A stretch of DNA of 49,318 nucleotides, taken from Bacillus sp. ISL-55. Lineage in GTDB: Bacteria > Bacillota > Bacilli > Bacillales > Cytobacillaceae. A model generated the notes under the pieces. It was not told the DNA's origin and ran no database searches. It saw only the letters and a program-made list of their open reading frames with translations. Position 1 is the first letter of the stretch, and each line of letters opens with the position of its first letter. The translations under genes and the position numbers were made by a program. The stretch covers positions 1 to 49,318 of the forward strand of contig NZ_JAGGQU010000040.1 of the NCBI RefSeq assembly GCF_018613155.1, written 5' to 3'. Positions 9,257 to 47,350 of this stretch are shown here, one piece after another.

Positions 9257-9589
9257 ATGAAAATGTTCATGCTTAAAAGCTTTATGCTAGCTTCTTTAAT
9301 GTTCATATCCGTATTGTTCGGCATGCAACAGGCAAATGAAGGCATCCTTAAAATGAAAGGCTATGAAGACCCTGAATTCAAAAGTGCGTTCAACATTGAA
9401 GAAAAGGAAAACGGGACCTTCGAAACAGCCATATTAGGAAATGACGTCTCCAGCCATGACTTGGAACAAAAGCGGAAAAAACTAGAAGAAATGAAAGCAT
9501 ATAACCTCTTTTCATCTATAGGAAAAAACCTGGCCGATGGAGTCTCCACGATCGTCGAGAAAACTGTTGAATTAATAACTGGGAAGTAA
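9257..9589 (+). CDS. yqxA: YqxA family protein (DUF3679), single membrane segment
   Basis: 110 residues. It begins with a hydrophobic segment (about residues 4-25, signal anchor) and continues as a charged region with a heptad-like stretch LEQKRKKLEEMK. The place directly after spoIIP and the pattern GMQQANEGILKMKGYEDP match B. subtilis YqxA, whose function is unknown to me. The start was set at ATG 9257 because TAGGTGATTG just before it is a good ribosome site; a GTG inside that site would give three more residues. A strong terminator follows. A co-transcribed sporulation role with spoIIP is inferred from position only. Confidence 0.8.
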   Translation: MKMFMLKSFMLASLMFISVLFGMQQANEGILKMKGYEDPEFKSAFNIEEKENGTFETAILGNDVSSHDLEQKRKKLEEMKAYNLFSSIGKNLADGVSTIVEKTVELITGK

Positions 9590-9596
9590 GTAGAGC

Positions 9597-9620
9597 AGCG
9601 GGCTTAGGCCCGCTGTTTTT
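9597..9620 (+). terminator. Terminator of gpr/spoIIP/yqxA region
   Basis: CAGCGGGC-ttag-GCCCGCTG followed by TTTTT; a compact rho-independent terminator eight bases after the yqxA stop. Confidence 0.92.
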
Positions 9621-9672
9621 AGCTTAAAGATTTATTTGCATTGCAATTATGAGATTGATTTAGCAGCAGAAA

Positions 9673-10245
9673 GAGACCCTTATGGGGAAAGAAACCCACT
9701 CATAAGGGTCTCTTTAACCATGAAAGGTGCCCTTATGCGGTAAGAACCCCACTCATAAGGGTCTCTTTATCCCTGAAAGGTGCCCTTATGCGAAAAGCCC
9801 CCACCCATAAGGGCCTCTTTACCGAAGAAAGGAGCCCTTATACGTAAAGAACCACGCTCATAAGGGTCTCTTTATCCCTGAAAGAAGCCCTTATGCGGCA
9901 AGAACCCCACTCATAAGGGTGTCTATAATCATGAAAGGAGCCCTTATGCGGTAAGAACCCCACTCATAAGGGTCTCTTTAACCATGAAAGGAGCCCTTAT
10001 GCGGTAAGAACCCCACTCATAAGGGTCTCTTTATCCCTGAAAGGAGCCCTTATGCGGCAAGAACCCCACTCATAAGGGTGTCTATAACCATGAAAGGAGC
10101 CCTTATGCGGTAAGAACCCCACTCATAAGGGTCTCTTTAACCATGAAAGGAGCCCTTATGCGAAAGGAATCCCCCTCATAAGGGTCTCTTTACCGAAGAA
10201 AGGAGCCCTTATGAGGTAAGAAATCCACCTATAAGGGTACCTTTA
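9673..10245. repeat. Array of eleven 53-bp palindromic tandem units
   Basis: The motif CCCTTATG (or CCCTTATA) starts at 9677, 9730, 9783, 9835, 9888, 9941, 9994, 10047, 10100, 10153 and 10206, a period of 53 with a single 52. Each unit carries CCCTTATG then, about 17 bases on, CATAAGGG, followed by a spacer ending AAAGGAG. Units 5-7 are nearly repeated by units 8-9, with identical variants 159 bases apart. The array sits between the yqxA terminator and the lepA promoter, so neither gene's mRNA should contain it. No ORF of real length crosses it and no CRISPR-like variable spacers are present. Confidence 0.95.
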
Positions 10246-10290: not shown

Positions 10291-10319
10291 TTGAATCTTG
10301 ATATTCCTGCTGATATAAT
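10291..10319 (+). promoter_or_regulatory. Probable SigA promoter of lepA
   Basis: TTGAAT (10291-10296), 17-base spacer, TATAAT (10314-10319). It lies 46 bases after the tandem array and 43 bases before the lepA start. Confidence 0.75.
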
Positions 10320-10361: not shown

Positions 10362-12197
10362 ATGAGCAGAGAAGAAAGACTGAATAGACAAAGCAAAATA
10401 CGAAATTTTTCGATTATCGCCCATATTGACCATGGTAAGTCGACGCTGGCTGACCGTATCCTTGAAAAGACGAATGCGTTGACTGCACGTGAGATGAAGG
10501 ATCAGCTTTTGGATTCGATGGACCTTGAACGTGAGCGTGGAATCACGATAAAACTGAACTCAGTACAATTGAAGTACAAGGCGAAAGATGGAGAAATCTA
10601 TACTTTCCACCTTATCGATACTCCAGGACACGTAGACTTCACCTATGAAGTTTCCCGAAGCCTGGCAGCATGTGAAGGTGCCGTCCTTGTTGTCGATGCG
10701 GCACAGGGAATCGAGGCACAGACCTTGGCGAACGTTTACCTCGCAATCGATAATGACCTGGAAATCGTGCCGGTCATCAATAAAATCGATTTGCCAAGTG
10801 CGGATCCTGAACGTGTCAGAAATGAAATTGAAGAAGTGATCGGTCTGGATGCTTCTGAAGCTGTTCTTGCTTCTGCTAAAGCGGGAATCGGAATTGAAGA
10901 TATCCTGGAACAAATCGTCGAGAAAGTTCCTGCTCCACAAGGGGACCCTGAAGCTCCTTTGAAAGCATTGATCTTCGACTCCTTGTACGACGCATACCGC
11001 GGCGTAGTCGCTTATATCCGTGTCGTCGATGGCACCGTAAAAGTTGGCGACAAGGTCAAGATGATGGCAACAGGCAAAGAATTTGAAGTAACGGAAGTTG
11101 GAGTATTCACTCCAAAAGCTACTCCTGCAGGTGAATTGACAGTCGGGGATGTAGGTTTCCTTACTGCGGCAATCAAAAACGTTGGCGACACACGTGTAGG
11201 TGATACAATTACCAATGCGAAAAACGGCGCATCCGAACCGCTTCCAGGTTATCGCCGCCTAAACCCAATGGTATATTGCGGACTATATCCAATTGACTCA
11301 GCTAAGTTCAACGACCTGAGGGAAGCTCTTGAAAAATTGGAGCTGAACGATTCAGCTCTGCAATTCGAGCCTGAAACTTCGCAGGCACTTGGCTTCGGTT
11401 TCCGCTGTGGATTCCTTGGACTTCTTCATATGGAAATCATCCAGGAGCGAATTGAACGTGAATTCAAGATTGATTTGATTACGACAGCGCCAAGTGTAAT
11501 CTATGATGTTATCATGACTGATGGTACTGAATTGAAGGTAGACAATCCTTCTAACATGCCTGATCCTCAAAAAATTGACCGTGTTGAAGAGCCTTATGTA
11601 AAAGCAACGATGATGGCGCCGAATGACTATGTTGGGGCAATCATGGAGCTTTGTCAGGAAAAGCGCGGCATCTTCATTGATATGCAATATATGGACGAAA
11701 CTCGTGTCAGCATCGTGTATGAAATTCCGCTGTCGGAAATCGTTTATGATTTCTTCGATCAGCTAAAATCAAGCACGAAAGGCTATGCGTCCTTCGATTA
11801 TGAACTGATCGGGTACAAGACTTCCAAGCTTGTGAAGATGGATATCTTGCTGAACGCTGAAAAAGTGGATGCTTTGAGCTTCATCGTTCATAATGATTTT
11901 GCCTATGAAAGAGGAAAGGTCATCGTTGAAAAATTGAAGGACCTAATCCCTCGTCAGCAATTCGAGGTGCCAATCCAGGCAGCCATCGGCCAGAAAATTG
12001 TTGCGCGCTCGACAATCAAGGCGATGCGCAAAAACGTATTGGCGAAGTGTTACGGTGGGGATATCTCCCGTAAACGTAAGCTCCTTGAGAAGCAAAAAGA
12101 AGGTAAAAAGCGCATGAAGCAAGTCGGATCTGTAGAAGTTCCGCAGGAAGCCTTCATGGCAGTCCTGAAAATGGACGACAACAATACGAAGAAATAA
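10362..12197 (+). CDS. lepA: Elongation factor 4 (LepA), ribosome-associated GTPase
   Basis: 611 residues, full length. LepA is a translational GTPase related to EF-G that acts on ribosomes in initiation and back-translocation models. The G1 motif AHIDHGKS is at residues 20-27, with DTPGH and NKID further on; domains II, III and V resemble EF-G, and the LepA-specific C-terminal domain follows. The start was placed at ATG 10362, after TAGGAG with good spacing, giving [17 protein letters not shown]; an in-frame GTG three codons earlier overlaps the ribosome site. It has its own promoter just after the tandem array, and a terminator-like hairpin follows. Confidence 0.97.
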
Positions 12198-35863: not shown

Positions 35864-36141
35864 CAAAAGCTTGTAGCTTTCAACCGATATGCGGAAAGCA
35901 TTCGCATCGCTGAAAAGGTTGATCAAAAATTACATATGTTGCGGTGAAGGAAAAGAGTACTTAAAACCCTCTGTATAAGCGAGTCCGGAAATGGTGTGAG
36001 CCGGATTGCAGAAATTAAGGAAGGCGTTCCGGAGCGACATCACTTTTAAAGTGGCTGCCATTTGCAGCAAATAGGGTGGAACCGCGGGTAATCTCTCGTC
36101 CCTATGCATGAAAAGATGCATAGGAGGCGGGAGTTTTTTTG
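35864..36141 (+). ncRNA. Glycine T-box riboswitch leader with terminator
   Basis: The canonical T-box AGGGTGGAACCGCGGG lies near 36073-36088. The upstream Stem I shows AGCGAG (35978-35983 region) and GGTGTGAGCC typical of its distal part, and the proposed specifier codon is GGC (glycine) at 36023-36025. The terminator (about 36094-36140) has CCTATGCAT paired with ATGCATAGG and seven T. Uncharged tRNA-Gly binds Stem I and the T-box antiterminator bulge and allows glyQS transcription. A further hairpin (CAACC...GGTTG, 35881-35921) precedes Stem I. The gap from 36142 to glyQ holds only its ribosome site. Confidence 0.93.
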
Positions 36142-47295: not shown

Positions 47296-47350
47296 AAAGG
47301 CTCTTTGCTTTTGCAAAGGGCCTTTACTTTTGCAAAGGGCCTTTACTTTT
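47296..47350 (+). terminator. Terminator of cccA with duplicated 3' arm
   Basis: The 5' arm AAAGGCTCTTTGC (47296-47308) can pair with either of two identical 3' arms GCAAAGGGCCTTT (47313-47325 and 47332-47344), each followed by ACTTT-type T-rich sequence. Confidence 0.85.

Follow-up and report, generated by a model that had tools for sequence, protein, structure and literature searches.

An 11-unit, 53-bp tandem array upstream of lepA in Bacillus sp. ISL-55 and its candidate NERD-domain partner

The 53-bp tandem array upstream of lepA is read here, with a probability of about 0.6, as a dispersed satellite whose trans-acting partner is a NERD-domain protein (X), the gene for which lies elsewhere in this genome; X would bind, process and maintain the arrays. 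The window, meaning the whole stretch of DNA analysed (49,318 nt), encodes no NERD protein and has an X-type array before lepA, therefore the copy at lepA is taken to be a dispersed satellite of X. The array belongs to the published class of 52-nt repeats of constant size and variable sequence. What appears to be new is the link to a NERD partner, the geometry of the arms and the match between the presence or absence of X and that of the arrays.

The array and its surroundings

Tandem Repeats Finder places the array at 9669-10245 with a period of 53, 10.9 copies, 85% matches and a score of 802; the second-ranked row in the window has a score of 89. The 11 units start at 9677, 9730, 9783, 9835, 9888, 9941, 9994, 10047, 10100, 10153 and 10206. 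Nine of the ten steps are 53 and one is 52, because the inner spacer of the third unit is 15 nt. The strict period with a single step of 52, claimed by an earlier sequence-only reading, is confirmed by both the program and the unit starts. The unit can be read as a palindrome in two ways. The first is CCCTTATG-N16-CATAAGGG, and the second runs across the unit borders with about 15 imperfect pairs round a 7-nt spacer. The features of the region are:

9257..9589, + strand, yqxA-like gene 5' of the array (ORF; name from the sequence-only reading)
9596..9620, + strand, terminator hairpin and T-run after the yqxA-like gene (read by eye)
9669..10245, no strand, 53-bp tandem array of 11 units with X-type arms CCCTTATG-N16-CATAAGGG (Tandem Repeats Finder and sequence)
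9783..9813, no strand, core of the third unit, inner spacer of 15 instead of 16
10206..10237, no strand, core of the last unit, right arm TATAAGGG
10291..10319, + strand, lepA promoter-like site, TTGAAT-17-TATAAT, with TG preceding the second hexamer
10362..12197, + strand, lepA (ORF)

The ORF at 10362..12197 is presumably lepA. A close match to its first 313 aa exists in each of the 21 genomes of the genus, here taken to be Mesobacillus. The distances of 53 bases from the yqxA terminator and 46 bases to the lepA promoter both hold. No ORF of at least 50 aa overlaps the array, which agrees with the view that it is not coding. The array is also not a CRISPR, as had been proposed, since unique spacers between identical repeats are absent. 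The family resembles CRISPR in that a regular array can stand beside a gene with a nuclease-like domain, but it differs in lacking unique spacers and in having units that are homogenised within an array.

The Rfam search of the window lists only a T-box leader (35935-36106, + strand, RF00230, 95 bits, gathering score 93) and has no match at the array. A terminator-like CTTTACTTTTGCAAAGGGC motif with 2.5 repeats is located at 47303-47350, after a gene end.

Tandem repeats of 51-53 nt and 20-21 nt, constant in size and variable in sequence, have been described in Bacillus (Subirana and Messeguer, PMC8161180). In B. selenatarsenatis, 59.8% of the 82 tandem repeats have the 52-nt repeat, which is common to B. 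selenatarsenatis, B. boroniphilus and B. subterraneus. That paper calls the 52-nt repeats enigmatic, with an unknown function and an unnamed partner protein. Its authors propose a protein that polymerises, a role in the nucleoid or a small RNA, and report that evidence for a Cas-like protein is absent. The Mesobacillus arrays are like these repeats in their period of 51-53, in being non-coding, in having many families per genome and in having short signals, often with the reverse inside one repeat; the Mesobacillus motif and the partner protein are not given in that paper. The array upstream of lepA is non-coding, has 10.9 copies of 53 nt where the class has at least 4 copies of 51-53 nt, and contains short signals with their reverse in the CCCTTATG and CATAAGGG arms. 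Its genome has several arrays of the same length and different sequence.

A dispersed family with conserved arms

The genome of the window (G000; 4.52 Mb in 69 contigs) has 113 matches to CCCTTATG-N16-CATAAGGG with up to 2 mismatches, compared to 1 for a reversed control, so the array is not due to chance. The family occupies at least 19 places in this genome, including the one upstream of lepA; L039 and L040 at the contig ends C53 and C61 are judged by their flanks to be one place, which gives 19 and not 20. The array had been called isolated, which is not supported. The further loci that were to be looked for exist, and the array is neither confined to one strain nor freely variable.

Units that share a place are nearly always spaced 53 apart. 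In 64 arrays from G000 and G004-G009, 301 of 322 successive unit spacings are exactly 53. The 16 inner and 21 outer bases are alike within one place and differ between places. Pairwise differences in the inner 16 bases are 0.669 between arrays and 0.241 within, and those in the flanking 7+7 bases are 0.427 and 0.138. The arms differ by 0.068 per site between arrays and 0.060 within, although the units were picked by their arms (up to 3 mismatches), which somewhat inflates arm conservation. The consensus at positions 26-31 is ATAAGG in 63 of 63 arrays (382 units). Units holding N were left out, which keeps 382 of 386 recognised units, and the differences within arrays come from 45 arrays with at least 4 units.

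A neutral variable-number repeat without a partner, spread by slippage, would account for the homogenisation within arrays and for the copy number, which ranges from 1 to 27 recognised units among the 64 arrays. It is already contradicted by the conserved arms, and the same arms and period at places where the other bases are unrelated rule out independent slippage. This explanation is hardly credible. The longest of the 64 X-type arrays (L173:9322-10783, G004) has 27 recognised units, and the genes on either side of its 2.4-kb gap are divergent.

When 1 mismatch at most is allowed, 16 of the 21 genomes of the genus match the arm pattern (4-167 matches each). No matches are seen in G002, G010, G012, G018 and G019, and G003 has four. 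There are therefore 15 array-rich genomes with 23-167 matches each and 6 array-poor genomes with 0-4. The other 24 genera of the family have at most 3 arm matches per genome. Loci L042, L049, L074 and L107, labelled as Chryseobacterium sp. ISL-80 or Cytobacillus oceanisediminis 2691 DE0166, also carry these arrays, and the names look wrong. At least six stretches of Anaerotignum lactatifermentans (L044, L077, L078, L093, L108 and L137) have a single match to the arm pattern; some are close to contig ends, and they are perhaps an unrelated repeat.

Pairing, gene orientation and terminators

The sequence-only reading suggested selection on DNA or RNA structure. The part concerning DNA stands, as the arms are kept while the inner bases drift; the part concerning RNA is not supported, as pairing equals that of shuffled partners. 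The outer stem pairs at 67.1% within arrays, compared to 66.0 +/- 1.7% after partners are shuffled between arrays, and no covariation of the outer stem was found between arrays. Pairing in the inner 16 bases (31.0%) falls below that of the between-array shuffles (44.5%). This lower value is due to composition, since permutation within arrays gives 159.8 of 504 and 156 are observed. The RNA hairpin reading was therefore rejected, because the partner bases do not covary.

The arrays could still be transcribed and act as small RNAs or hairpins. PMC8625621 places 52-nt repeats of B. coagulans in RNA-seq, and where an array is co-directional, its purine-rich strand is that of the flanking genes (0.625 in 19 arrays vs 0.406 in 12 arrays, p = 0.006). 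The pairing results and the lack of an Rfam match at the array upstream of lepA argue against a non-coding RNA, making it very unlikely. A mini-ORF in each unit, with a Shine-Dalgarno-like AAAGGAG before CTTATG, was dropped by eye because the stops differ between arrays.

The arrays have a bias in location. By gap type, 25 of the 64 are convergent, 31 co-directional and 5 divergent, and 3 at contig or locus edges were left out of the test. The baseline, array-free intergenic gaps of at least 60 bp in the same loci with genes from our own ORF caller, has 75 convergent, 294 co-directional and 127 divergent gaps. The difference between convergent and divergent gaps has a Fisher p of 2e-6, in which the same place in different genomes is counted apart so that the 64 cases are not independent. 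The median distance of an array is 96 bp to gene 3' ends and 194 to starts.

A role as a terminator or roadblock for neighbouring genes would fit the penicillin-binding protein (PBP) locus described below, where the array and X part a gene from its ancestral terminator. Ordinary terminators are predicted equally often at 3' ends that face an array, ahead of the array (47 of 84), and at other 3' ends (216 of 399), so substitution of terminators by arrays was rejected, and a role of this kind is highly improbable. The same counts bear on the claim that the array lies outside both transcripts: this fits the copy upstream of lepA and is not supported as a rule for the family.

The NERD gene X and its co-occurrence with the arrays

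X is located at G000:C32:24075-25010 on the minus strand, directly beside another array of the same family. This array, which has the same arms, is directly 3' of X, a type I NERD gene, and starts 47 bp after its stop (Tandem Repeats Finder; L036, L262). X encodes 312 aa with a match to the NERD domain (PF08378) at 37-143 (E 1e-15), and also contains the four-cysteine motif. The NERD domain was reportedly described by Grynberg and Godzik in 2004. In 49 of 49 aligned type I NERD proteins, G41, E42, D46, Q72, D74, K88, Q115 and the four cysteines are invariant; the interrupted X of G015 and the truncated X of G017 were left out of the alignment and these counts. We take D74, K88, Q115 and the cysteines to fit a PD-(D/E)XK-like site with a zinc ribbon. 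Zinc-ribbon profile matches are weak, and no solved structure matches the NERD-clade profile at E 0.1.

An X orthologue with at least 79% identity is present in 14 genomes of the genus. In G017 the gene is truncated (82% identity over residues 1-172) and the genome still has 60 sites. The X gene of G015 is interrupted at codon 48 by an in-frame stop. X, whole or damaged, is thus found in 15 of 15 array-rich genomes, and no orthologue was found in the 6 of 6 array-poor genomes. The best relatives in the array-poor genomes have E values of 1.9e-89 to 1.3e-72, compared to 1.3e-164 or better for the 14. Identity is 47% in G003 and 45% in G019, while G002, G012 and G018 are placed by E value only. 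G010, which is 66% complete, has no relative of X. The number of NERD genes does not follow the arrays, with 9-14 copies in both array-rich and array-poor genomes, 5 in G012 and none in G010, which is incomplete; the X orthologue is the one NERD gene that tracks them.

The PBP locus (P0002, Peptidase_S13) has matches in 19 of 21 genomes, the exceptions being G012 and G017. In G002, G003, G010, G018 and G019 an ordinary terminator follows the PBP gene, with neither array nor X. The other 14 loci have CCCTTATG-type units behind the stop codon, and in G008 the contig ends after one unit. Wherever the contig continues, a convergent X follows beyond the array; it is on another contig in G001 and G008, and past an insert in G009. 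The array and X stand between the PBP gene and the terminator shared with a sleB-like gene, and this ancestral terminator stands beyond X in all 14 of the X loci examined. In G009 (L221), a further coding sequence that is transposase-like by eye lies between the array and X.

Midpoint-rooted trees were made from lepA (21 genomes) and from lepA and PBP (19 genomes, as G012 and G017 lack a PBP match). G010, G018 and G019, along with G012, are outside the array-bearing group, and G002 and G003 are inside. Support is 0.76 for the sister relation of G002, 0.51 for the closest relation of G003 and 1.0 for the larger clade round G003. The co-occurrence of X and the arrays rests on about three changes on these trees. 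G002 and G003 have the PBP-sleB junction in its ancestral form. A simple loss would not bring that form back, which makes recombination or separate gains possible.

An origin from a virus, plasmid or phage was rejected. Plasmids searched at E 1e-20, phages searched at E 1e-10 and viral contigs gave no relative of X, and the arms have no exact match in viral contigs. The terminal residues of X in L262-L275 are of a few types that seem, by eye, to follow the type of the neighbouring array over the species tree (G005 vs G009), and the X end residues and array types look as if exchanged together.

NERD clades and arrays across genera

The pairing extends beyond the genus. A 51-53-nt array stands 3' of 63 of 65 unique type I NERD genes from 33 genomes of 7 genera, starting 5-310 bp after the stop (median 56). 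This count covers genes whose 3' sequence extends for 150 bp or more, which leaves out L159 and L269. The two exceptions are Y, the NERD gene at the lepA locus, in G020 and the truncated X of G017. The 14 best relatives outside Mesobacillus, one per genome in 6 genera, were chosen by score and not by array, and each of the 14 is directly followed on its 3' side by an array of 52 or 53 nt. Named records L051, L074, L076, L082 and L107 agree and are the same genomes as G015, G006, G014, G001 and G013. As a control, a 49-55-nt array is 3' of 72 of 740 sampled genes, taken from loci that had been chosen for X-type arrays, and of 18 of 740 when those locus-defining arrays are not counted.

The NERD tree has 47 genes, with one 119-aa fragment (L247) left out. 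In this sample, each of the 8 type I genes is followed by an array of 51-52 nt, and none of the 39 type II and III genes has a 51-53-nt array there. The type II genes have 20-21-nt repeats 5' in 22 of 27 cases, compared to 9 of 740 control genes at narrower settings. The 12 type III genes have neither repeat class, and one of them has 2.3 copies of a 22-mer 415 bp 3'. The type II loci with 5' repeats are L241-L246, L248, L249, L251, L255-L257, L261, L292-L294, L300, L302, L303 and L306-L308. The repeat 5' of the type II gene in L242 has about 50 copies.

NERD genes and arrays might merely insert or survive in the same 3' gaps. Arrays do favour such gaps, and at lepA an X-type array is found in three genomes where fifteen others have Y. 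However, arrays are rare 3' of the control genes, the type II and III NERD genes lack them, and X also tracks arrays at other places in the genome. An insertion hot spot is thus quite unlikely.

A different chromosomal protein could also polymerise on the arrays, organise the nucleoid or shield transcription units, with the NERD genes merely adjacent. A nucleoid role was proposed in PMC8161180, and the fixed spacing, the period of about five helical turns and the bias to 3' gaps (25 convergent vs 5 divergent) are consistent with it. This explanation is unlikely, as arrays are gained and lost freely (an X-type array is at 3 of 20 lepA loci), and it leaves both the 63 of 65 NERD genes with an array and the match with X unexplained. 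In the single contig of G009, 20 places are spread over 0.27-4.79 of 4.81 Mb, with no origin or terminus bias seen by eye (origin not located). An origin-proximal placement, suggested by a smaller set of places, was rejected on this spread.

Proposed role of X

Among the options offered by the sequence-only reading, a protein-binding array is kept, with X as the candidate protein. X, which combines a nuclease-like NERD domain with a four-cysteine motif, would recognise the inverted arms, and the unit length, about five helical turns, may keep the sites on one face of the DNA. X may nick or cut its own sites. Repair between neighbouring units would then alter copy number, even out the array and discard variants that are no longer recognised, so that under this proposal arrays would persist only where X is present. 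The arrays would survive in gaps between transcripts, away from promoters. The array upstream of lepA would thus serve the X-satellite pair, either selfish or bound for a chromosomal role, and not the neighbouring genes. A benefit of the arrays to the host is neither shown nor excluded.

REP/REPIN elements with RAYT (Y1 transposase) genes have a similar arrangement, in which an enzyme gene is flanked by its own palindromic repeat and the dispersed copies depend on it. The X family is like this in having a gene for a putative DNA-processing enzyme beside its own palindromic repeat, with dispersed copies that would depend on it. It differs in that the protein is a NERD protein and not a Y1 transposase, and in the strict 53-bp tandem period.

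A link between the NERD domain and tandem repeats was not found in the literature searched, with most subscription papers outside its coverage. PMC9040797 (2022) states that, to its authors' knowledge, NERD function in bacteria had not been studied before that work. Gene position in 7 genera, and shared presence or absence within one genus, tie the candidate protein to the arrays and make simple binding and deletion tests possible. With such a partner, the widespread NERD domain would gain a role as well.

Putative target letters of the NERD subgroups

The array letters differ between subgroups of type I NERD. The neighbours of X have CCCTTATG or TCCTTATG arms, arrays of Y have mostly CCAAT-N7-ATTGG arms, and other groups have others. 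The lepA loci were read in 20 genomes (G012 left out). G000, G001 and G004 have an X-type array before lepA. Y is before lepA in fifteen, of which 13 have a 52-nt array, one is at a contig border and one, in G020, has no array. The lepA gap of G010 and G019 has neither an X-type array nor Y.

All 15 genomes that have Y contain sites with Y arms (9-85 matches each), and G001, G004, G010 and G012 have 0-4. The exceptions among the 6 genomes lacking Y are G000 with 38 sites and G019 with 47. No Y-type array stands beside the type I NERD genes of G000 (5) and G019 (3), and CCAAT-N6-8-ATTGG was not found in the examined stretches of these two genomes. The prediction for Y arms therefore held in 19 of 21 genomes, and this second specificity is not strictly one-to-one. 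Together with the damaged X of G017 and G015 and the Y gene of G020, G000 and G019 are the exceptions to the NERD-satellite pairing.

With roughly even odds, NERD proteins in general may be sequence-specific satellite nucleases. One clade would create and maintain 52-bp inverted-arm arrays 3' of its genes and across the chromosome, a second clade would do the same with 21-bp repeats 5', and each subgroup would evolve its own target letters within a constant helical geometry. If true, both constant-size classes would be one two-part system, either selfish or chromosome-organising. Target letters shared among distant NERD proteins were rejected, as proteins with less than 60% identity share means of 12.1-12.5 of 20 letters, compared to 12.1 when shuffled. 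In sampled loci, dispersed 52-nt arrays also resemble other families by eye, such as TATCGGACA with TGTCCG.
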